Assembly (NCBI GenBank): GCA_030591585.1
Contig: JAUVAS010000004.1
Location: forward strand, 1 to 64,000
Direction of reading: 5' to 3'
Length of the DNA: 64,000 nucleotides
Source: Flavobacterium sp.
GTDB lineage: Bacteria; Bacteroidota; Bacteroidia; Flavobacteriales; Flavobacteriaceae
Shown here: piece by piece, positions 31,065 to 40,275 of the stretch
Layout of the letters: every line of letters starts with the position of its first letter
Numbering within the stretch: position 1 is the first letter of the stretch
Notes under the pieces: model-generated
The model's database searches: none
What the model was told of the DNA's origin: nothing
The model's input: only the letters and a program-made list of their open reading frames with translations
Position numbers and translations under genes: made by a program

Positions 31065-31310
31065 ATGAGTAAGATTGAAAAGCTACTATTGAAATTTAAA
31101 TCAGTTCCCAAAGATTTGACTTGGGATGAATTGGTGAAAATATTGAATTACTATAGCTATTTTGAAAAATCTACTAAAGGAAAAACAGGAGGTTCTAGAA
31201 GAAAGTTTGTTAATGATAATATAGATATTATTAGTTTGCACAAACCACACCCTAGAAATATTGTGAAACAATATGTAATAAAACAACTTATAGAAAAATT
31301 AGAATTATGA
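31065..31310 (+). CDS. hicA: HicA-family toxin (type II toxin-antitoxin)
   Basis: 81 residues with the small dsRBD-like HicA fold: WDELVKILNYYSYF, GGSRRKFVND, ISLHKPHP, VIKQLIEKLEL. HicA is an mRNA interferase that cleaves translated messages when HicB is degraded. In E. coli HicA the catalytic histidine is in GSNH; this protein has GGSRR there and keeps histidines in LHKPHP, as in a common HicA subgroup. The stop TGA overlaps the ATG of a five-codon ORF (ATGA at 31307-31310), the beginning of the 65-nt element between hicA and hicB. Confidence 0.88.
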   Translation: MSKIEKLLLKFKSVPKDLTWDELVKILNYYSYFEKSTKGKTGGSRRKFVNDNIDIISLHKPHPRNIVKQYVIKQLIEKLEL

Positions 31311-31371
31311 AACGAGCATGTTAAAATTTTAATCACCTAAGGGGATGATTAATAGCGAACAGCATGTGACC
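31307..31371 (+). ncRNA. 65-nt structured leader-like element, copy 1 (hicA-hicB)
   Basis: Shares conserved ends with 39048-39112: ATGAAACGAG(C/T)ATGTT at the left and TAGCGAACAG(C/T)AT(G/A)TGACC at the right, with a 24-nt variable centre; both copies are exactly 65 nt. Here the left CATG can pair with the right CATG, and an inner stem TTAATCA/TGATTAA forms. The first 18 bases encode MKRAC-stop. It ends 25 bases before the hicB ATG. No known RNA family was recognised. Confidence 0.55.
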
Positions 31372-31396
31372 GTTTAAAAACAATAAATATAAACAC

Positions 31397-31750
31397 ATGA
31401 AAAATTATTTAGAATATAAAGATTATGTTGGTACTGTAAATTATAGTGCTGAAGATGACACCTTTTATGGTAAAATTGAAGGGATCAATGATTTAGTTCT
31501 CTTTGAAGGTGAATCTGTTTCAGAACTTAAAGAAGGTTTTGAAGATTCAATAAATGACTATTTAGAAACCTGTAAAGAATTAGGAAAAGAACCAAACAAG
31601 ACTTACAAAGGCGTTTTTAACGTGAGAGTTCCTAGTGCAATTCATAAAAAGCTTTCGCTAATTGCTTCTAAAAACGGTTTAAAACTTAATGAATTGGTTA
31701 GAAAAACATTTAATTACCTAGTCGAAAATGAAAAAAAAGTATTAGAGTAA
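31397..31750 (+). CDS. hicB: HicB-family antitoxin
   Basis: 117 residues. The N-terminal half (about 1-70) is the HicB ribonuclease-H-like fold: YVGTVNYSAEDDTFYGKIEG, LKEGFEDSINDYLETC. The C-terminal part is a ribbon-helix-helix DNA-binding domain: FNVRVPSAIHKKLSLIASKN and LNELVRKTFNYLV. It should bind HicA and repress the operon from the inverted repeat at 31023-31041. The 86-base gap between hicA and hicB is long for such a pair and is filled by the conserved 65-nt element. Confidence 0.92.
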   Translation: MKNYLEYKDYVGTVNYSAEDDTFYGKIEGINDLVLFEGESVSELKEGFEDSINDYLETCKELGKEPNKTYKGVFNVRVPSAIHKKLSLIASKNGLKLNELVRKTFNYLVENEKKVLE

Positions 31751-31763
31751 TACTTTGTAAATT

Positions 31764-32351
31764 CTATCTATAAAAATTCATCTCATCTAGATACTCCCAT
31801 ACTTTTTGAGGTAATAACGGACGAATATCATTTCCTAAAGCGATATTTTTTCTAATAAAAGTAGAAGAGATTTGAACAATAGGGGCATTTATTTTAGTGA
31901 CTTCTCTTCCTTTATCAAGGTGAGAGATGTTTTCTTTTTTCGGTGTTATTCTAGGATATACATAAATAGGGTATCTCTCTAAAATAACCTCATAGTTTTT
32001 CCATTTGTGAAGACTTTTTAAATTGTCTTCTCCCATAATTAAACAAAAGTTCAATTCGGCATGCTTTTCTTCTAAAACCGCTAAAGTATTAACCGTGTAA
32101 TTGGGTTGAGGAAGATCAAACTCTATGTTACTAGCTTTTAATTTTGGGAAATCTTCAATTGCGATTCTTACCATTGTTAAGCGGTGAATATCCTCTAATA
32201 AAGTATTCTTTTTTTTATGAGGATTGTGAGGCGTAACTACCAACCAAATTTCGTCTAAATCTGAATACTCTGCTAAATGGTTAGCAATAATTAAATGCCC
32301 TACGTGAATAGGGTTAAAAGTTCCGAAAAACAAGCCAACTTTTTTAGGCAT
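31764..32351 (-). CDS. nadD: Nicotinate-nucleotide adenylyltransferase
   Basis: Adenylates nicotinate mononucleotide in NAD synthesis. 195 residues. The nucleotidyl-transferase motif is FGTFNPIHVGHLIIANH (about 9-25), and the closing ISSTFIRKNI is the typical ISST.IR motif. It overlaps gmk by eight bases, in a yicC-gmk-nadD transcript found in many Bacteroidetes. It shares the NAD pathway with the dioxygenase gene at 8666-9202. Confidence 0.96.
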   Translation of the reverse strand: MPKKVGLFFGTFNPIHVGHLIIANHLAEYSDLDEIWLVVTPHNPHKKKNTLLEDIHRLTMVRIAIEDFPKLKASNIEFDLPQPNYTVNTLAVLEEKHAELNFCLIMGEDNLKSLHKWKNYEVILERYPIYVYPRITPKKENISHLDKGREVTKINAPIVQISSTFIRKNIALGNDIRPLLPQKVWEYLDEMNFYR

Positions 32352-32925
32352 TTTCTTTAGTAATAAATTTTAAAACCAAATTCTTAGACTCTTCAAGTGC
32401 TGTTTCTAAAACTTTGTTTTCAATAATAAAATCGAATTGCGGAGCAGTAGCCAACTCTACCGAAGCTTTAGCAATACGCATATTTATTTTTTCGTCACTC
32501 TCTGTTTTTCGTTTTTTAAGCCTGATTTTAAGCTCATCAACACTGGGAGGCTTTACAAAAACAGCCAAGGTTTCTTTTGGATATTTCTTTTTAATACGTA
32601 ATCCGCCAACCACATCAATATCAAATATCACGTTTTTTCCTAAACCCCAAATTCTATCAATTTCAGTTTTAAGAGTTCCGTAAAAGTTATCGCGATATAC
32701 TTCTTCCCATTCTAAAAAATCACTGCCTTTAATATGTTGTTTAAATTCTTTTAAACTAATAAAGTAATAGTCTGTACCGTGAATTTCTTTACCTCTTGGT
32801 TCGCGAGAAGTAGCGGAAACAGAAAACGCTAGGTTTAATACTTCCTGCTTTAAAAGGTATTGTACAATAGTAGTTTTTCCACTTCCAGAAGGTGCCGAAA
32901 AAACAATTAATTTTCCTCCAGCCAT
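32344..32925 (-). CDS. gmk: Guanylate kinase
   Basis: Phosphorylates GMP to GDP. 193 residues with the P-loop FSAPSGSGKTTI (about 9-20), the GMP-binding SATSREPRGKEIHGTDYYF and the DIDVVGG strand. It starts on the base that ends yicC (32925) and overlaps nadD by eight bases, so the three genes are tightly coupled. Confidence 0.97.
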   Translation of the reverse strand: MAGGKLIVFSAPSGSGKTTIVQYLLKQEVLNLAFSVSATSREPRGKEIHGTDYYFISLKEFKQHIKGSDFLEWEEVYRDNFYGTLKTEIDRIWGLGKNVIFDIDVVGGLRIKKKYPKETLAVFVKPPSVDELKIRLKKRKTESDEKINMRIAKASVELATAPQFDFIIENKVLETALEESKNLVLKFITKENA

Positions 32926-33782
32926 TATAAAACGTTTAAAGCTTGTTCTTTTATTTTCTCTAGCTCATCTTTCATTTGCACTACCAATTGTTGCATAGGT
33001 GCGTGGTTAGATTTAGAACCAATAGTATTGATTTCACGACCAATTTCTTGACAGATAAAAATTAATTTTTTTCCGTTAGAATCATCAGAATTTATCGCTT
33101 CATTAAAGTAATTTAAGTGGTTTTTTAAACGCACTTTCTCTTCGGTAATATCGTATTTTTCGAGGTAATAAATAAGCTCTTGTTCAAAACGATTTTCATC
33201 TACGGTTTCTGCTAAATCACTAACAGCCTTTCTGAGTCTTTCTTTTACAATATCAATTCTGTCGCTATCTATTGCAATTACCTTTTCTAATAATTCTGTA
33301 ATGGTATTGATTCGCATTTTAAAATCGTCTTCTAGAACTTTTCCTTCATCTGAACGGTATTTGTTAATGGCTATTAATGCTTCGGTAAGTGCTTCAGAAA
33401 TACTTTTAAACTCATCATCTTCAATTTCTTTACGCTCCGTTTTCATCGCATCAGGCATACGTATTGCCATTTTTAATAATTCTACCTCATCTCCATCCAC
33501 AACATTTGAAAGTTGCTCCATATATTGTTTTACCACAGTTTCATTTAACTTAGAGCTGGTTTCTTCACCTGTAATTTCAACAAATAAATTAAAATCTACT
33601 TTCCCTCTTGTTAAAGATTTTGATATGGTTTTACGCATGTCCAATTCCTTTTCTCTATACGAAGAAGGCACTCTTGCATGAAGGTCTAGATTTTTACTGT
33701 TTAACGATTTTATTTCAACCGTAATTTTTTTAGTAGGTAATTGTACTACAGATTTCCCGTAGCCGGTCATAGACTGAATCAT
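32925..33782 (-). CDS. YicC family endoribonuclease
   Basis: 285 residues, N-terminal start IQSMTGYGKSVVQL and C-terminal HLNYFNEAINSDDSNGKKLI followed by FICQEIGREINTIGSKS, the two signature regions of the YicC/YloC family. Members have been shown to be endoribonucleases acting on RNA decay in some bacteria. First gene of the yicC-gmk-nadD unit. The stop shares a base with the gmk start. Confidence 0.93.
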   Translation of the reverse strand: MIQSMTGYGKSVVQLPTKKITVEIKSLNSKNLDLHARVPSSYREKELDMRKTISKSLTRGKVDFNLFVEITGEETSSKLNETVVKQYMEQLSNVVDGDEVELLKMAIRMPDAMKTERKEIEDDEFKSISEALTEALIAINKYRSDEGKVLEDDFKMRINTITELLEKVIAIDSDRIDIVKERLRKAVSDLAETVDENRFEQELIYYLEKYDITEEKVRLKNHLNYFNEAINSDDSNGKKLIFICQEIGREINTIGSKSNHAPMQQLVVQMKDELEKIKEQALNVL

Positions 33783-33856
33783 AAATTGAAATTTACTTTG
33801 GGCAAAGGTAGTAAATTAGAGTGGGAGTAAGGAGAGATGTAAATTGAGAAAACACT

Positions 33857-34816
33857 TTATTCTTCTTTTAAAAACTGAAGTGTCCTTTTTTCACTATAAT
33901 ACTCCTTATTAGTTTGATGAAACCCAACATGACCACCATATAAAGGGGTTTCTAAAAATATGTTTTTAGAGTTTTCGGCAACTTTATATGGATAGCAATC
34001 CTTGTTAAGGAAACTATCATTTTTAGCATTCAATATAAGAATTGGAATTTTAATATTTGGGATAAATTGATTGCTACTGTTTTTTTCGTAATAATCGTAA
34101 GCGTCTTTAAATCCGTGAGCTTTGGAGGTATAAATGTCGTCGAAGTCTTTAAGGGTTTTAATTTTACTCAGGTCTGAAACATTTATTTTGTTAGGATAAT
34201 GCTTCATTTTAAGTTTGAACTTCTTCCGAAGATGAATTAAAAACGTATTACTATAAAGCCAATTTTCAGACTTTATTAAGCACTCTAATGACCCTCGTAA
34301 ACTTGTAGGGACAGAAATGGCTACTCCTTTTTTTATTTCGATAGGGACATCGTCTCTTTCTCCTAAATATTTCAGTAATAAATTGGCACCTAAGCTAAAC
34401 CCTACCAAGACGATTTCTTGATAGTTGTCTTTTTCAAGAATATAATCTAGTACACTTTTTAAATCGTCTGTTTTCCCTGAATGATAGGATTGATAAGAAA
34501 GGTTGTTTTCTCCACTACATCCTCTAAGATTCATAGCGGCAATATCCCAATTGTTTTGTAACAATATCTTTCCAGCCCCCTTTATATAGTTTCGTTGGGC
34601 ATTACCTTCTAGCCCGTGAAGTAGAATAATTACTTTGTTTGTTTTGGATTTTGAATAGGACCAATCTACATCTAAAAAGTCACCATCGGGTAATGTGACA
34701 CGTTCTCTTTCTTGAAGTAAAGAAATGGGAGGTCTTAGTTTTGCCGAATAAATGGTAGAAAAATGCCCATTTTTAAAAATAAATGAGGGTTTGTAGTTGC
34801 TTTTTATAAGGGGCAT
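33857..34816 (-). CDS. YheT-family alpha/beta hydrolase
   Basis: 319 residues. The oxyanion region is ILLHGLEGNAQRNYIKGA and the nucleophile elbow GFSLGANLLLKYLG (Ser near 145). The acid is probably in LNAKNDSFL and the histidine in PLYGGHVGF. This pattern fits the YheT/ABHD1-type family of putative esterases. Substrate unknown. Cytoplasmic by lack of signal. Divergent from the thioesterase gene. Confidence 0.9.
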   Translation of the reverse strand: MPLIKSNYKPSFIFKNGHFSTIYSAKLRPPISLLQERERVTLPDGDFLDVDWSYSKSKTNKVIILLHGLEGNAQRNYIKGAGKILLQNNWDIAAMNLRGCSGENNLSYQSYHSGKTDDLKSVLDYILEKDNYQEIVLVGFSLGANLLLKYLGERDDVPIEIKKGVAISVPTSLRGSLECLIKSENWLYSNTFLIHLRKKFKLKMKHYPNKINVSDLSKIKTLKDFDDIYTSKAHGFKDAYDYYEKNSSNQFIPNIKIPILILNAKNDSFLNKDCYPYKVAENSKNIFLETPLYGGHVGFHQTNKEYYSEKRTLQFLKEE

Positions 34817-34916
34817 ATTAGAATAATAAAATTTTTTAGCAAAGTAAGAAATTACTATGCATACTTCAAAAAGAAACTATTTATATGCGATATTTTGTAG
34901 TTAAAAGGGGATATTT

Positions 34917-34924
34917 TACTTTTG
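34917..34924 (+). promoter_or_regulatory. Promoter -7 box deciding the thioesterase start
   Basis: TACTTTTG fits TAnnTTTG. It lies inside an upstream extension of the reading frame (in-frame ATG at 34885), so translation most likely begins at the ATG at 34939. Confidence 0.5.
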
Positions 34925-34938
34925 GGGAAAAATTAAAA

Positions 34939-35412
34939 ATGTATATAAAAGAGTTTGAAGTCCGTTGGAACGATTTAGACGCAAATCGCCATTTAGCAAA
35001 TAGCACTTATTTAAATTACATGAGTCATACGCGCTTGAGTTATTTGATGGAAAAGGGGTTCAATCAAAGCAATATGGTAAAACATAATATTGGTCCTGTG
35101 GTTTTTGATGAGCACGTGTTTTATTTTAAGGAAATATTTCCGGGAGAACCTATTCGGGTTTCTTTAGAGTTGAAAGGGCTTTCTGAAGGAGGAAAATACT
35201 TCGAGTTTCAGCATAATTTCTATAATACTGAAGGAATAAATATGGCACGTTGTGATATGATGGGCGGATGGATAGATTTAAAAACAAGAAAATTGAGAGA
35301 CCTACCTGAAACGCTGTTTAATGCATTAAGCGATTTAGATAAAACGGAAGACTTTAAAGTTTTAACCAAAGAGGATACCCGAAAACACAGAAAAACACCC
35401 AAGAATTTGTAA
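34939..35412 (+). CDS. Acyl-CoA thioesterase (4HBT hot-dog fold)
   Basis: 157 residues from the ATG at 34939. The hot-dog motif FEVRWNDLDANRHLANSTYL carries the catalytic aspartate region of 4-hydroxybenzoyl-CoA-type thioesterases. The rest (HVFYFKEIFPGEPIRVSLEL, ISMARCDMMGG-like ending in GGWIDLKTRK) agrees. It hydrolyses an acyl-CoA; chain length unknown. A longer form from 34885 is possible, but a promoter box at 34917-34924 argues for the shorter one. The neighbour gene is convergent, two bases away. Confidence 0.85.
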   Translation: MYIKEFEVRWNDLDANRHLANSTYLNYMSHTRLSYLMEKGFNQSNMVKHNIGPVVFDEHVFYFKEIFPGEPIRVSLELKGLSEGGKYFEFQHNFYNTEGINMARCDMMGGWIDLKTRKLRDLPETLFNALSDLDKTEDFKVLTKEDTRKHRKTPKNL

Positions 35413-35414
35413 CA

Positions 35415-36311
35415 CTAAGTAGATTTCGACTTTCTAGTTGAAAGATAAACTCCTAAAAAAATGAAGGTAGCAGCAATAATTCTTAAAGGGGTGAGCTCGT
35501 CTGCCCCTACAAATACAGCAAATATTGTTGCTAGAATAGGTTGTAAATAAATAAATGCACCAATAGTAGATGGTTTTAATTGTTTAAGTGCATAGATATT
35601 GAATAAGTAGGTAAAAAAAGTAGTTCCTATTACTACAAAGGATAATTTTAATATGGAATCTTGTTCAAGTTGAGACCATTCTACAGAGAGGAACTCATTT
35701 ATACCAATTGGTATATTAATTATAAAAGCGAATAAGAAAAACCATTTCATTAAAGTTATAGAACTGTATTTTGAAACTAATGGTTTTACAATAATTAAAT
35801 AGGCAGAATAGGAGATTGCATTAATAATAAAAAGGATATTTCCTAAGGGGATATTAGATGCATTAACTTGTGTTTTTAACCCAAAGAATATCAATAATAG
35901 TGTGCCAAATAGCCCAAGAAAAATCCCTACAGATTTTTTCCAGGTGATTTTTTCTTTTAGAAAAACGGCAGACATTATTAATATTAAAACCGGAACAATA
36001 GTAATAACAACTGAGCTGTTTATGGGTGTAGAGTAACTTAAACCTTTAAAAAACATCAACATATTTAAGGTCATTCCAAAAAATGCACAAGCTAAAATTC
36101 GAAGCCAGTCACGGCGATCAATTTTCTCTGAAGGAAAAAATAAACTTACCAACCAAAATAAGATAGCTGCTCCACTAATTCTTAAAAAAATAAATCCAAA
36201 GGGTTCGATAATCTCTGGCATTAAACCTTTAGCAATGGTATGATTTATGCCGTAGATAGCAGAAGCTACGGTAGCAGCAAGTAGGGCAAGGGCTCTAGGA
36301 TTTAATTTCAT
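35415..36311 (-). CDS. EamA/DMT-family transporter
   Basis: 298 residues with ten predicted membrane helices in two EamA repeats, for example LNMLMFFKGLSYSTPINSSV in the first and TFFTYLFNIYALKQLKPSTI in the second. The group exports metabolites such as amino acids; the substrate is not known. It follows the DUF481 gene by six bases on the same strand, so the two may be co-transcribed. Confidence 0.92.
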   Translation of the reverse strand: MKLNPRALALLAATVASAIYGINHTIAKGLMPEIIEPFGFIFLRISGAAILFWLVSLFFPSEKIDRRDWLRILACAFFGMTLNMLMFFKGLSYSTPINSSVVITIVPVLILIMSAVFLKEKITWKKSVGIFLGLFGTLLLIFFGLKTQVNASNIPLGNILFIINAISYSAYLIIVKPLVSKYSSITLMKWFFLFAFIINIPIGINEFLSVEWSQLEQDSILKLSFVVIGTTFFTYLFNIYALKQLKPSTIGAFIYLQPILATIFAVFVGADELTPLRIIAATFIFLGVYLSTRKSKST

Positions 36312-36317
36312 TAATTT

Positions 36318-37325
36318 TTACTTTAATTCCCATCCAAAACCACTATTAAAAATATAATCAAAATCATTGCCTTCAATTGCCGGTTGATTATCATAATTCA
36401 CAGAAAAATCAAATTTTATATAAAAATCCCAAGGTAAATTATATTTAAGATCTATGTTATAATCTGTTCTAAACCTTTTACTTTCAGATAAACTAGGATA
36501 AAGAGTTAGATCGGTAATCAACCTGAAATCACCAAATTCATACATATTAAATTCAGCTGCTATATTTGCTTCTGTTGAGTTCTTGTTTAGTGAATCTTCT
36601 ACATAATTTTCTATATTATAATTAATACCAACCCTTACGCCAAGATAAAGTCTATTACTTCTTATTGCATATTTTCCAATTCCTAAAATAGTAGTAGTCC
36701 TTCCTTCAAGAGCTTGCTCTGTATTTGATAAGAAGGAAACTTGGCTTATACCATAGTAATCTTTAAATAAAAATCGTTGAGCCTCCAGACTCCACTCTAC
36801 CCTTTTAATTTCTTCTACATTATCTTGGCTGGTTAGTAAAGAACTATACGCACCGCTAAAATTCCATAATTTACCGACATATTTAAGCTTGCTACTTACC
36901 GTAAATTGATTAAAGTTATTTGCTTTTGTTAAGTTAAAACCAAGATCTATTTCGCCAACAAATCGATTCCAAAATTTATTACCCGAAGCTTTTAATTGAA
37001 TAACATTTTCAATTTTTGTTTCAAAAGTCATCCCATCACTTATGATTTCTATGACCCCTGGGCTAACTGTTTTTATATTGCCTAGATAGTGACTGCCGTT
37101 TACTAAATTAATTAAGAAAGTTTGATCTAGATAGATTTCTGTGACCTCTTTATATTCTATTTTAAAATCCTTATCACTATAGGAGGTTTTCATGGTTATA
37201 ACACCATTTATTAATGTTTTAATTTCACCAACAAGAACATTATTATTTTTAAGTTTTATAGAATCGTTTTGAGAGAAACTACAAAAGCTAATTAAAAGAA
37301 AAAAAACGAAGAGAGATTTATTCAT
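36318..37325 (-). CDS. DUF481 outer membrane beta-barrel protein
   Basis: 335 residues from the ATG at 37325 (MNKSLFVFFLLISFCSFSQ, a clear signal peptide). An in-frame ATG seven codons upstream would spoil the n-region. The N-terminal ~100 residues contain small beta repeats (VLVGEIKTLINGVITMKTSY, GSHYLGNIKTVSPGVIEI). The rest is the DUF481 barrel with alternating aromatic strands, ending with aromatic GFGWELK. Role unknown; probably a porin-like or structural outer membrane protein. Confidence 0.85.
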   Translation of the reverse strand: MNKSLFVFFLLISFCSFSQNDSIKLKNNNVLVGEIKTLINGVITMKTSYSDKDFKIEYKEVTEIYLDQTFLINLVNGSHYLGNIKTVSPGVIEIISDGMTFETKIENVIQLKASGNKFWNRFVGEIDLGFNLTKANNFNQFTVSSKLKYVGKLWNFSGAYSSLLTSQDNVEEIKRVEWSLEAQRFLFKDYYGISQVSFLSNTEQALEGRTTTILGIGKYAIRSNRLYLGVRVGINYNIENYVEDSLNKNSTEANIAAEFNMYEFGDFRLITDLTLYPSLSESKRFRTDYNIDLKYNLPWDFYIKFDFSVNYDNQPAIEGNDFDYIFNSGFGWELK

Positions 37326-37366
37326 ATTGGAGTTAAAGCAGTTCAAAAATAGCGATAATATAATTA

Positions 37367-37714
37367 TTATAACGATTCTTTAGCCGAAGCTACTGTGTTT
37401 TTACTGTTTCCAATAAATAGTTCTGTTTCATTAATAAGCACAGGGCGTTTTAAAAAAGTATAATGTTCTAACAATAATTTTTTAAAGTCTTTTTCTTGTA
37501 AGCTTTTATTTTTCAAATCTCGCTCGCTATACATTCGTGCTCGTTTGTTAATGAGGGCTTCATAGGATGTTGTAAAACGGTATAATTCGTCCAATTCTTT
37601 CTCTGTAATCGGATTAGTTTTAAGGTCTTGTTTTATAAATTCATCTGAAAGATTTAATTCTTTTAAAATGCGCTTATTGGTGTCACAAGTGGATAGGTAG
37701 TATATTTTTTTCAT
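37367..37714 (-). CDS. ArsC/Spx-family protein
   Basis: 115 residues with a thioredoxin-like ArsC fold. The N-terminus YYLSTCDTNKRILKEL has a single cysteine at position 9 followed by TN, as in arsenate reductase-related proteins. A later RPVLINETELFIGN matches the RP loop. True arsenate reductase activity is doubtful without other ars genes nearby; many such proteins are named for fold only. Single gene. Confidence 0.82.
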   Translation of the reverse strand: MKKIYYLSTCDTNKRILKELNLSDEFIKQDLKTNPITEKELDELYRFTTSYEALINKRARMYSERDLKNKSLQEKDFKKLLLEHYTFLKRPVLINETELFIGNSKNTVASAKESL

Positions 37715-37772
37715 GGTTACAAAGTAACTTTTTTCTAAAGAAAATGTTTATTTTTAATTCAAAATTAAACTT

Positions 37773-38228
37773 ATGGATTTCACTTTTGATATTACTTTAA
37801 AAACAAGAACAATATTTTATAATTTACTAGAATCCTTTTCATTAGAAAAGCTTAACACAAAACCTGAAGGATTTAATAATACGGTTTTTTGGAATATAAA
37901 GCACGTAGTAGTAACCCAGCAATTGTTAATTTATAATTTATCAGGATTGCCAATGCTCCTTCCTGAAGCAGAAATTGAAGCATATAGAAAAGGGAGTACC
38001 TATGAAAAAGACGCAACTAATAAAGATGTTGAAATTTTAAAGAAACAACTTTTTTCAACGTTAGAACAAACCCAAATAGATTATAAGAAAGGTCTTTTTA
38101 AAACTTTTAATGAATATACAGTTTCTACAAAATCTGTACTGTCTAATATAGAAGACGCTCTAGAATTTAATAATTTTCATGACGGCATCCATTTAGGCTA
38201 TATTTTAGCAATGAAGAAAAATCTTTAA
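37773..38228 (+). CDS. DinB-family (DfsB-like) protein
   Basis: 151 residues, a four-helix metal-binding bundle: FNNTVFWNIKHVVVTQQLLI gives the first histidine site and EFNNFHDGIHLGYILAM the C-terminal pair. The pattern matches the DinB superfamily of possible thiol-transferases and hydrolases, unrelated to polymerase IV. The last four bases overlap the convergent DUF3298 gene. Confidence 0.85.
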   Translation: MDFTFDITLKTRTIFYNLLESFSLEKLNTKPEGFNNTVFWNIKHVVVTQQLLIYNLSGLPMLLPEAEIEAYRKGSTYEKDATNKDVEILKKQLFSTLEQTQIDYKKGLFKTFNEYTVSTKSVLSNIEDALEFNNFHDGIHLGYILAMKKNL

Positions 38229-38977
38229 AAAGTAAGATAAGGGTTAGCTTTTTCTAATGGAATGATTAACTCAATAGCACCATCTGCATAACTAGCAATC
38301 TCGTATTGGTTGTAAATTAAAATCACATTTTTATCTGAAAAACCTATGGATTCTGGTAAACTAAAAGTGTCGTTTTCAAACCAAAATCCTGTAGAGTTTA
38401 TACTTTCATTTTTAGCAATGTTCTTTTCTTTTCTAAATAGTACTTCAACAAAATTTGTGAATTCTTTTTTATTTTTCAGTAAAGAACCCGTAGTTATTAA
38501 AGCACCTGTTAAAGGGTCAAAATTTAAAAAACTCGTTGAAGAATTTCCGTGAGCACCTCCTGTAAATGTATAATGTTCTGTTTTTACTGAAATGATTTTG
38601 GAAGTTATTAATGATTTTGAAATGGAGATTTCAGCTTCATAGGGACTTAGTTCTGGAAATTCCTTTTTGTCATTTTCATACCCTTTAATAAACATATTTG
38701 CAGCTTCAGGGACTGTTGCGGCTTTTATTCTTTTTTCAGAATTTGAGTTTAAAAAATAGATAATAGAACTACCAAGGGTGAAGTTGATTTTATCAATTGC
38801 CTCTTTTTCTCCCTGTAGTTTTATATAATCTATGGTGACAATAGCACAATCATCATTGGAGCAATTGCCTTTGTATTCTTCAGAAAAACTCTCAAAAGTT
38901 ACTAAAATGGTCTCCTCTTTTCTGCAACTAATTGAAACAAAAAACAATAGAAAAATAATTCTGATTTTAAAAGACAT
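38225..38977 (-). CDS. DUF3298/DUF4163 lipoprotein
   Basis: 250 residues. The N-terminus MSFKIRIIFLLFFVSISC ends in a lipobox cysteine (residue 18). The body fits the paired DUF4163 and DUF3298 domains (as in RsiV-type proteins): YTFTGGAHGNSSTSFLNF followed by DPLTGALI is the hallmark. RsiV homologues bind lysozyme in some Firmicutes; here the role is unknown. It is transcribed away from metB, with a 158-base gap holding the metB leader. Confidence 0.85.
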   Translation of the reverse strand: MSFKIRIIFLLFFVSISCRKEETILVTFESFSEEYKGNCSNDDCAIVTIDYIKLQGEKEAIDKINFTLGSSIIYFLNSNSEKRIKAATVPEAANMFIKGYENDKKEFPELSPYEAEISISKSLITSKIISVKTEHYTFTGGAHGNSSTSFLNFDPLTGALITTGSLLKNKKEFTNFVEVLFRKEKNIAKNESINSTGFWFENDTFSLPESIGFSDKNVILIYNQYEIASYADGAIELIIPLEKANPYLTF

Positions 38978-39020
38978 ACGTTAAAATGATTTCAATGATT
39001 AATATAAAAGTAAAAAAAGG

Positions 39021-39028
39021 TATTTTTG
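39021..39028 (+). promoter_or_regulatory. Promoter -7 box of metB
   Basis: TATTTTTG fits TAnnTTTG. Transcription would start near 39034-39037, about 100 bases before the metB ATG, which places the 65-nt element (39048-39112) within the leader. Confidence 0.6.
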
Positions 39029-39047
39029 TTTTTCTAAAATTACAACA

Positions 39048-39112
39048 ATGAAACGAGTATGTTGAAAAGCTAAGTATATAATTTAACACCCATTAGCGAA
39101 CAGTATATGACC
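39048..39112 (+). ncRNA. 65-nt structured leader-like element, copy 2 (metB leader)
   Basis: Same length and conserved ends as 31307-31371. Compared with copy 1, base 11 is T instead of C and base 60 is A instead of G, which keeps the pair; base 14 G faces T instead of C at 57 (wobble). An inner stem GCTAA/TTAGC occurs in the otherwise unrelated centre. The first 18 bases encode MKRVC-stop. It ends 23 bases before the metB ATG. Confidence 0.6.
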
Positions 39113-39135
39113 AAGATAATAAATAGTAAAGATAT

Positions 39136-40275
39136 ATGAAATTCAATACCAAAACAATTCACGGCGGACAAGAACACGATAAAGCGTATGGAGCTGTAAT
39201 GCCTCCTATATATCAAACATCAACCTATGCTCAAACTACGCCAGGAGGACATAAAGGGTTTGAATATTCTCGAACTCACAATCCAACACGTGCAGCTTTA
39301 GAAAGAAGTTTTGCAAGTCTTGAAAACGGAAATTTTGGATTGGCTTTTGGTAGTGGTTTGGCAGCTATAGATGCAGTAATGAAGTTGTTAAAGCCCGGTG
39401 ATGAAGTGATTTCAACAAACGACTTATACGGAGGTTCCTATAGATTATTTACTCAGATTTATGAAGATTTTGGAATTAAGTTTCATTTTATTGGTATGGA
39501 AAACGCCGATAAGATTGAAGATTTTGTAACTAAAAACACAAAATTGATTTGGTTAGAAACTCCAACCAATCCAATGCTTAATATTATTGATATTAAAAAA
39601 GCAGCAAGCATTGCCGAAAAACACGGTATTTTATTAGGTGTGGACAATACGTTTGCAACGCCTTACCTGCAACAACCCCTTATTTTAGGAGCAGATATTG
39701 TGATGCATAGTGCTACTAAATATTTAGGAGGACATAGCGATATTGTAATGGGAGCTTTGGTAGTAAAAGATCAAGAGTTGGCAGATAGACTTTATTTTAT
39801 TCAAAACGCAAGTGGGGCTATTTGTGGTCCTCAAGATAGTTTTTTAATGCTTCGGGGAATAAAAACATTACACGTGCGTATGCAACGTCATTGTGAAAAT
39901 GGTAAAGCAGTAGCGGAGTATTTAAACAATCATCCAAAAATTGAAAAAGTATATTGGCCAGGGTTTAAAAGTCATCCAAATCATGAGATTGCTAAATCTC
40001 AAATGAGTGATTTTGGCGGGATGATTTCATTTACAACTAAAGGGAATAACTATAACGAAGCGATTAAAATAGTAGAAAACCTTAAAATATTCACCTTAGC
40101 TGAAAGTTTAGGAGGTGTAGAGAGTTTATCTGGTCATCCTGCGAGTATGACTCATGCTAGTATTCCAAAAGAGGAAAGAGAAAAAACAGGAGTTGTAGAT
40201 TCTTTAATTAGGTTGAGTGTTGGGATTGAAGATGAAAATGATTTAATCGAAGACCTAAGGCAAGCAATAGGTTAA
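39136..40275 (+). CDS. metB: Cystathionine gamma-synthase / gamma-lyase family enzyme
   Basis: PLP enzyme of trans-sulfuration, 379 residues. The PLP lysine is in MHSATKYLGGHSDIVMGA (near residue 198). Further signatures are YSRTHNPTRAALERSFASLE, the substrate region DLYGGSYRLF and SLGGVESLSGHPASMTHAS. It could act as synthase (MetB) or lyase; the family does not separate cleanly by sequence. Position alone with a ~100-base leader suggests regulation at the RNA level. No SAM riboswitch core was recognised. Confidence 0.9.
   Translation: MKFNTKTIHGGQEHDKAYGAVMPPIYQTSTYAQTTPGGHKGFEYSRTHNPTRAALERSFASLENGNFGLAFGSGLAAIDAVMKLLKPGDEVISTNDLYGGSYRLFTQIYEDFGIKFHFIGMENADKIEDFVTKNTKLIWLETPTNPMLNIIDIKKAASIAEKHGILLGVDNTFATPYLQQPLILGADIVMHSATKYLGGHSDIVMGALVVKDQELADRLYFIQNASGAICGPQDSFLMLRGIKTLHVRMQRHCENGKAVAEYLNNHPKIEKVYWPGFKSHPNHEIAKSQMSDFGGMISFTTKGNNYNEAIKIVENLKIFTLAESLGGVESLSGHPASMTHASIPKEEREKTGVVDSLIRLSVGIEDENDLIEDLRQAIG

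Follow-up and report, generated by a model that had tools for sequence, protein, structure and literature searches.

The window analyzed here, the first 64,000 nucleotides (nt) of contig JAUVAS010000004.1 of a Flavobacterium sp. (forward strand), carries two copies of a short element, one at the junction of hicA and hicB and the other in front of a metB-like gene. We consider it likely that both belong to a nonautonomous mobile DNA of approximately 90 nt, present in hundreds of copies, that inserts at ATGAA, nearly always at the start of a gene and on the coding strand. We observe occupied and empty sites, an enrichment at start codons, arrays, decayed copies, and covariation between an internal hexamer and the right end, and the element is probably a mobile DNA rather than primarily a regulatory RNA.

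Extent, copy number, and distribution

The original prediction, made from the sequence of the window, described a 65-nt element with constant ends and a variable center at positions 31307 to 31371 and 39048 to 39112. The two stretches are indeed collinear across 65 nt, with near-identical ends and unlike centers, and they stop 25 nt (hicB) and 23 nt (metB) short of an ATG, as proposed. Their likeness is not due to chance: the right motif (up to three mismatches) occurs twice in the window against an expectation of 0.08, and 0 of 100 shuffles reach two. The left motif alone is weaker (two against 0.87 expected; 21 of 100 shuffles with at least two). The proposed five-codon open reading frames (ORFs) are also present, as ATGAAACGAGYATGTTRA opens both copies and encodes MKRAC or MKRVC followed by a stop. 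However, 65 nt is not the real unit. Conservation and fixed spacing extend beyond it to the downstream start codon, giving 90 and 88 nt for the two copies, and at 17 loci of the same genome, the added part is a loose A/T-rich leader that reaches the ATG of the next gene. The element generally measures about 88 to 91 nt, and 86 to 103 nt in other lineages.

Further copies had been expected in related genomes, and they are found both within this genome and, in larger numbers, in Flavobacteriaceae relatives and one genome of another class. BLAST with copy 1 gives 15 matches in the same genome, and motif searches give 10 right-motif and 16 left-end matches; together, these merge into the 17 loci (L010 and L031 are the same locus, C5, and were counted once). 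At 12 of the 17, the first ATG lies 88 to 91 nt ahead of the downstream ATG, including L023, where a distance of 90 was read by eye instead of from the earlier ATG used by the script. Three loci are longer (113, 114, and 132 nt) because another repeat lies inside them. L019 has an insert and a TTG start (by eye; the script had used a later ATG), and L022 lacks the right half.

A wider, genome-wide scan with a pattern that leaves out the downstream start codon yielded at least 121 copies at no fewer than 119 loci. The 80 titles displayed, of 119, are Flavobacteriaceae and relatives or Bacteroidetes metagenome-assembled genomes, and the hosts include Winogradskyella, Lutibacter, Kordia, Lacinutrix, Bizionia, Psychroserpens, Polaribacter, and others. 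Of 395 genomes sampled across the phylum, 4 contain the exact pattern, three from the same family (the present one among them) and one, G182, from another class. G182 has 28 left-end matches with at most one mismatch, compared with 3 for a reversed control, and several inspected copies precede genes in the same arrangement. Four matches on viral contigs have surroundings unlike the element and were judged to be chance.

Placement at start codons

With this start-codon-blind pattern, 106 of 121 copies among the matches listed have their first base 86 to 93 nt upstream of the point where an ORF of at least 40 amino acids (aa) begins. Nine of the other 15 copies have no ORF (four abut another copy, two reach the end of the locus, and three are gene-less), and the remaining six lie at distances of 77, 98, 99, 108, 117, and 132 nt, some of them misassigned. 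In a BLAST-based set from the genus (80 loci fetched, 2 of them unrecognized), 69 of 78 copies lie 81 to 91 nt before an ORF, 4 lie at 99 to 113 nt, and 5 have no ORF in the stretch. An ORF of 60 aa or more begins at the right-end ATGAA in 111 of 120 cases; of the ATGAA sites that lie outside ORF interiors and carry no element, 354 of 1,024 open one (odds ratio, 23; P = 1.5e-36). In three of the nine exceptions, the ATGAA is an additional one located just ahead of the true start, at a distance of a few bases. Similarly, AAA is the second codon of 89 of 94 element-bearing genes and of 148 of 652 genes without the element. The pfkA copy of the same genome has ATGGCA on the right and ATGAAA on the left, and L215 has ATGGAA on the right, suggesting that the element contributes the AAA on the left and needs no more than ATG as its target. 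The original prediction took placement at random relative to start codons as the mark of a mobile repeat; this element is mobile yet sits nearly always at start codons.

No common theme is apparent among the downstream genes. Eight downstream proteins that were checked belong to unrelated families, and the element precedes housekeeping genes in several genomes, including those for phosphofructokinase, glyceraldehyde-3-phosphate dehydrogenase, biotin carboxylase, and the tRNA-modifying family PF03054.

Occupied sites, empty sites, and arrays

In the present genome, G000, the occupied rfbA site reads ...GACCAATT-ATGAAATGAGC...AACAC-ATGAAAGGAATA, and the bare site in G011 reads ...GATCAATT-ATGAAAGGAATA. 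The bare genomes G011, G009, G001, and G008 have ...TTATGAAAGG exactly where G000 has the element, with the TGA of the upstream reading frame overlapping the native ATG, and rfbA is also element-free in G003, G004, G006, and G010. A short stretch upstream of rfbA in G007 (L117) and G005 (L118) resembles the right end of the element; tentatively, it is possibly a scar left after deletion of most of a copy. The metB site is occupied in G000 and G009, holds a decayed remnant in G011, and is empty in the other seven genomes of the genus that have a full-length match. A TTTG/-7-like box stands at a similar place before metB in six of these seven element-free relatives (by eye). The empty rfbA and metB sites in close relatives place the insertion precisely at the native start codon. 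The same comparison, together with consensus ends inspected by eye, indicates that the target is kept on the left and that there is neither a longer target duplication nor terminal inverted repeats.

Head-to-tail arrays occur in G018, with a period of 102, and in G030 (Lutibacter NORP71), with arrays of four and six units, mostly of 89 to 91 nt. Adjacent units of the six-unit array have differing centers, which argues for repeated insertion at the element's own ATGAA and not for simple duplication, whereas the units of the four-unit array and others are near-identical. The near-identical copies or arrays of G018 and G030 suggest recent activity. At L180, L188, and L193, copies sit at an ATGAA that opens no gene, and the DNA sequence itself can thus be the target. 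In eight pairs of copies, the downstream proteins are similar and the upstream DNA is not, so that certain genes may have received the element more than once.

Genes such as the lpxB-like and fabG-like genes, among others, carry unlike copies in different genomes of the genus. A metF-like insertion directly 3′ of a short hairpin-like stretch is common to five species of Winogradskyella (L138, L139, L141, L142, and L167) and is useful for dating the insertion. Other short palindromic repeats, for example of the CCCGACGTTTCGGGAG and CCTGCCTG...CAGGCAG types, lie inside the element at L019, L026, L030, L031, L198, L353, and L356 and in several G018 copies, either in the center or just 5′ of the TGACC motif; as other repeats sit there, the element tolerates inserts at these places. 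Two units of the six-unit Lutibacter NORP71 array (L437, positions 962 to 1250) have a common center insert, GGCGGAGCGTAAAGAATTTGTCC..., a further layer of nested repeats.

Pairing between an internal hexamer and the right end

The last six bases, CANATG, which include the downstream ATG, are complementary to the internal hexamer CATNTG (element positions 57 to 62), and the two covary. The combinations in 210 copies include CATGTG/CACATG (124 copies), CATCTG/CAGATG (7 copies), and CATATG/CATATG (5 copies). In a set of 80 copies selected without the exact pattern, but only if a CATNTG-like hexamer was present, pairing holds in 91.2% of cells, compared with 85.3% after shuffling, and double changes number 21 against 5.9, which none of 1,000 shuffles reach. 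The two different tandem units of L381 each match their own right end (by eye). A consensus fold of 12 copies contains the hexamer/right-end helix only, and RNAalifold on 194 copies predicts no structure without ribosum and the same helix plus weak left pairs with it.

That the target's -1 base follows the hexamer, through guide base 60, is supported but less firm. Among the matches listed, T or C occupies this position at 90 of 122 nontandem left ends (mostly with CATGTG), compared with 143 of 278 background starts, and G occupies it in 15 of 24 G018 insertions (CATCTG), compared with 4 of 22 background sites. Sorted by guide base, T or C stands at -1 in 87 of 112 copies with guide G, and G stands there in 5 of 9 copies with guide C.

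Search for a mobilizing enzyme

A Y1 transposase profile search of 44 genomes found Y1_Tnp above the cutoff in 12 of 26 element-bearing genomes (2 of 12 in one set and 10 of 14 in another). No Y1_Tnp match was found in G018, G030, G031, G034, G037, G002, G005, G007, G009, G011, G013, G014, and G017, an absence that is weak evidence, as draft genomes may lack multicopy genes. A resident Y1 transposase was set aside as the mobilizer, its presence being inconsistent across the 44 genomes. The element lies on 3 of 53 Y1 loci searched (L367, L374, and L381), one of them beside a broken Y1 gene. In that locus (L374 of G041, positions 1456 to 1900), the broken Y1 transposase gene adjoins the element, a terminator-like hairpin and not a gene follows it, and the GTCGGGGTGGCAGGATT stretch recurs further along. 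Among 10 element-bearing genomes, RVT_1 is present in 2, and it was not found in G018, G030, or G182. No gene-carrying copy was found among the lone ends in the 119 loci listed and 11 regions of relatives; the lone ends proved to be copies that are decayed or hold small inserts, or else to lie at contig ends or match by coincidence of unrelated sequence. Integron attC sites, IS607, group I and group II introns, and casposons were set aside on the basis of their usual motifs and targets, with the reverse transcriptase search as the one test applied.

Proposed mechanism

Following insertion, the native ATG opens a dead-end left ORF, usually of four or five codons, and the gene's reading frame opens at the right-end ATG behind the element's A/T-rich leader, where translation would presumably start. 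The replacement leader and ATG would keep most insertions harmless. The hexamer may serve as a guide that pairs with both the element's own end and the target, as IS608 guides do, and an enzyme acting in trans could cut and join the single-stranded DNA. The ends would be conserved between insertions since they are needed for movement, with the center as a mere spacer, and start codons would dominate since the leader and ATG keep the gene alive there. The start-codon bias may be explained by selection alone, but the noncoding ATGAA sites left unused hint at a further factor. More speculatively, we suggest as a possibility that the element represents a new class of start-codon-specialized mobile DNA, with a guide that reads NATG and a leader and start codon that the element supplies itself, moved by an enzyme outside the known Y1 transposases and the reverse transcriptases.

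A number of observations weigh against the mobile-element explanation. These include the Y1_Tnp count of 12 in 26, the lack of a Y1_Tnp match in G018 and G030 despite their near-identical copies or arrays, the failure to find a gene-carrying copy, and the patchy distribution of the element across the sampled phylum (4 of 395 genomes). Noncoding ATGAA sites are available yet rarely hit, so that selection or an extra preference beyond ATGAA is needed. Related copies inflate the covariation counts, whose independent weight is that of a few families. The association between the -1 base and the guide is weaker in the 80-copy shuffle test, where 12 to 17 of 1,000 shuffles reach it; three G182 copies with CATATG lack T at -1; and some of the G018 flanks scored as targets, with AACAG at their end, may derive from older copies, and the G018 background is only 22 sites. 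The left pairing of ATG with CAT (positions 11 to 13) is near-invariant and hence uninformative, and shuffles reach it. Hairpins are likewise weak (mean z scores of -0.39 for the center and -0.55 for the whole element in 90 copies), which leaves the inner stem proposed for the center with at most slight support.

Alternative explanations

The original prediction favored a cis-acting RNA or leader peptide shared by unrelated genes, and a real element does stand before unrelated genes. As a leader RNA, it would couple translation of the short ORF to alternative pairing of GCATGTT, AACAGCATGTG, and CACATG, thereby hiding or exposing the start codon, a reading that we regard as improbable. The covarying helix does take in the start codon, and, of the 187 copies with an intact ATG, 138 have a short ORF that ends after codon 5 and 9 have one that ends after codon 4 (147 of 187 in all), but the ORF has other lengths in the rest, the ATG is absent in 23 of 210 copies, and some Winogradskyella ORFs reach 13 codons. 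The stem of the original prediction, at positions 10 to 16 and 55 to 61, also exceeds shuffles (18 double changes versus 6.3 in 80 copies), mostly through pairs 15/56 and 16/55. The compensated pair that headed the prediction, 11/60, does change from C:G to T:A between the two copies in the window, yet across the 80 copies it is C:G in 52, T:A in 1, T:G in 1, and nonstandard, and thus broken, in 26. The Rfam comparison suggested in the prediction gave no match at the cutoff in eight loci, and a permissive search of the copy 1 region found nothing credible (best E value of 0.28, 19.4 bits versus a cutoff of 47.2). The precise empty sites, the arrays, and the insertions away from genes favor mobility over a leader RNA, as do the lack of a gene theme and the absence of strong conservation in place. 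Different insertions differ at 14% of positions in the left end, 18% in the right motif, and 33% in the center. Within one insertion across species (19 pairs, which include lpxB-like pairs with L299 that are possibly separate insertions and omit the 8 pairs with unlike upstream DNA), the corresponding values are 8.9%, 6.6%, and 14.0%, and 10.1% for the 40 bases upstream. A handmade set of 20 pairs gave 10.5% for the left end, a figure that contains the misregistered pair L041/L037, with 5.3% for the right motif, 8.2% for the center, and 10.9% upstream (one group, L320, was omitted). The left end thus changes at about the pace of the surrounding DNA and the right motif somewhat more slowly, leaving room for weak selection in these small samples, whose selection by BLAST favors conserved ends. 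A secondary effect on translation, through pairing of the start codon with the internal hexamer, is possible.

Two other accounts address the position of the element. Old leaders spread by gene duplication or by recombination of 5′ regions would explain the near-uniform distance to the start codon, but we find this barely credible: it is contradicted by the empty sites, the native upstream DNA is intact to the left of the element (the overlapping stop at rfbA and the -7 box at metB), and the eight downstream proteins are of unrelated families. Copying of an element RNA into DNA at or near start codons appears very unlikely given the sparse RVT_1 matches described above, including their absence from G018, G030, and G182, although an mRNA or transcribed-DNA target would produce both the sense orientation and the start-codon bias. 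A miniature inverted-repeat transposable element (MITE) of the IS200/IS605 type, or of the repetitive extragenic palindromic (REP) and REP-associated tyrosine transposase (RAYT) type, moved by an ordinary host Y1 transposase that is present or recently lost, is a special case of the mobile-element explanation, so our confidence in the two overlaps; on its own, we hold it to be rather unlikely. The short target left of the element and the absence of terminal inverted repeats (by eye) fit such a MITE and resemble IS608 and the IS200/IS605 family (PMC5934647). IS608 has internal guides, GL and GR, and its internal sequence is complementary to the right cleavage region (PMC5934647); our element likewise has an internal sequence complementary to its right end and may pair with the target base. 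The 12 of 26 element-bearing genomes with Y1_Tnp also speak for a Y1-moved MITE, whereas the 13 without any match (as draft genomes, no proof of absence) and the element's presence on only 3 of 53 Y1 loci speak against it. Relative to the IS200/IS605 family (PMC5934647), our element is only about 90 nt and gene-less, its ATGAA target is nearly always a start codon, its right end supplies a start codon, its hairpins are weak, and Y1 transposase is below the cutoff or missing in 14 of 26 element-bearing genomes. As a Y1 transposase is not consistently present in the element-bearing genomes, we do not file it as an IS200/IS605 element, though it may work like one.

Relationship to other known repeats

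REP sequences carry a GTAG-type tag next to a palindrome, and this tag is not present in the 95-column consensus of the element. Like REP sequences, which are associated with TnpA-REP/RAYT enzymes (PMC8266576), the element is small, multicopy, probably nonautonomous, and probably moved in trans; unlike them, it sits at start codons and on few Y1 loci, whereas REP sequences are scattered in intergenic DNA. The nearest published match by position that we met is the TAACTGA direct repeats of Beggiatoaceae, found also in five Bacteroidetes, which are sets of heptamers proposed as regulator binding sites (PMC4679880). Both are abundant and close to the start codons of functionally mixed genes, but insertion at the start codon is not described for the TAACTGA repeats in the abstract of PMC4679880. 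No description of the element was found in the open-access literature, as judged from listings, with subscription papers mostly outside that scope. Rickettsial palindromic elements and mitochondrial byp elements are also mobile and placed so that the host gene survives, and they lie inside reading frames, where they are translated or bypassed. The present element differs in lying at the gene start and replacing that start.

The two copies in the window

All features described here are on the + strand. The hicA gene (positions 31065 to 31310; PF07927) ends in a TGA stop at 31308 to 31310 that overlaps the ATG at 31307, so that, in GAATTATGA, the ATG of copy 1 lies inside the hicA stop, an overlap that the original prediction had recognized. 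Copy 1 spans 90 nt (31307 to 31396), with a boundary placed from empty sites at other loci and ambiguous within the ATGAAA repeated at 31307 and 31397. Its left end holds the MKRAC ORF (31307 to 31324), the ATG of which would be the former hicB start codon. The guide-like hexamer CATGTG (31363 to 31368) is complementary to the right end CACATG (31394 to 31399), which contains the ATG that opens the present hicB reading frame (31397 to 31750; PF05534). This arrangement is as expected if the insertion split a former ATGA overlap between hicA and hicB.

In Bacteroidetes, the -7 promoter box reads TAnnTTTG. Just upstream of the native metB start, TATTTTTG (39021 to 39028) fits this box. Copy 2 spans 88 nt (39048 to 39135) at the metB start codon, a site that is empty, decayed, or occupied in relatives. 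It opens with the MKRVC ORF (39048 to 39065), and its internal hexamer TATATG (39104 to 39109) pairs, with two G:T pairs, with the right end TATATG (39133 to 39138), which includes the metB start codon. The metB-like gene itself (39136 to 40275; PF01053) encodes a pyridoxal phosphate-dependent enzyme of cysteine and methionine metabolism.

Implications

Mobile DNA usually avoids or breaks genes; the present element settles on the start codon and supplies a new one. In Flavobacteriaceae, it would account for start codons that have been displaced and for operon overlaps that have been split, and it may mislead the annotation of gene starts. Shine-Dalgarno signals are often missing in Bacteroidota, and the element is a natural test of start-codon function in this phylum. 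If target choice truly follows the hexamer, this would be a small DNA element with its targeting encoded in its own sequence. If a start-codon-specialized class does exist, the translation starts of many housekeeping genes would have passed to mobile DNA.

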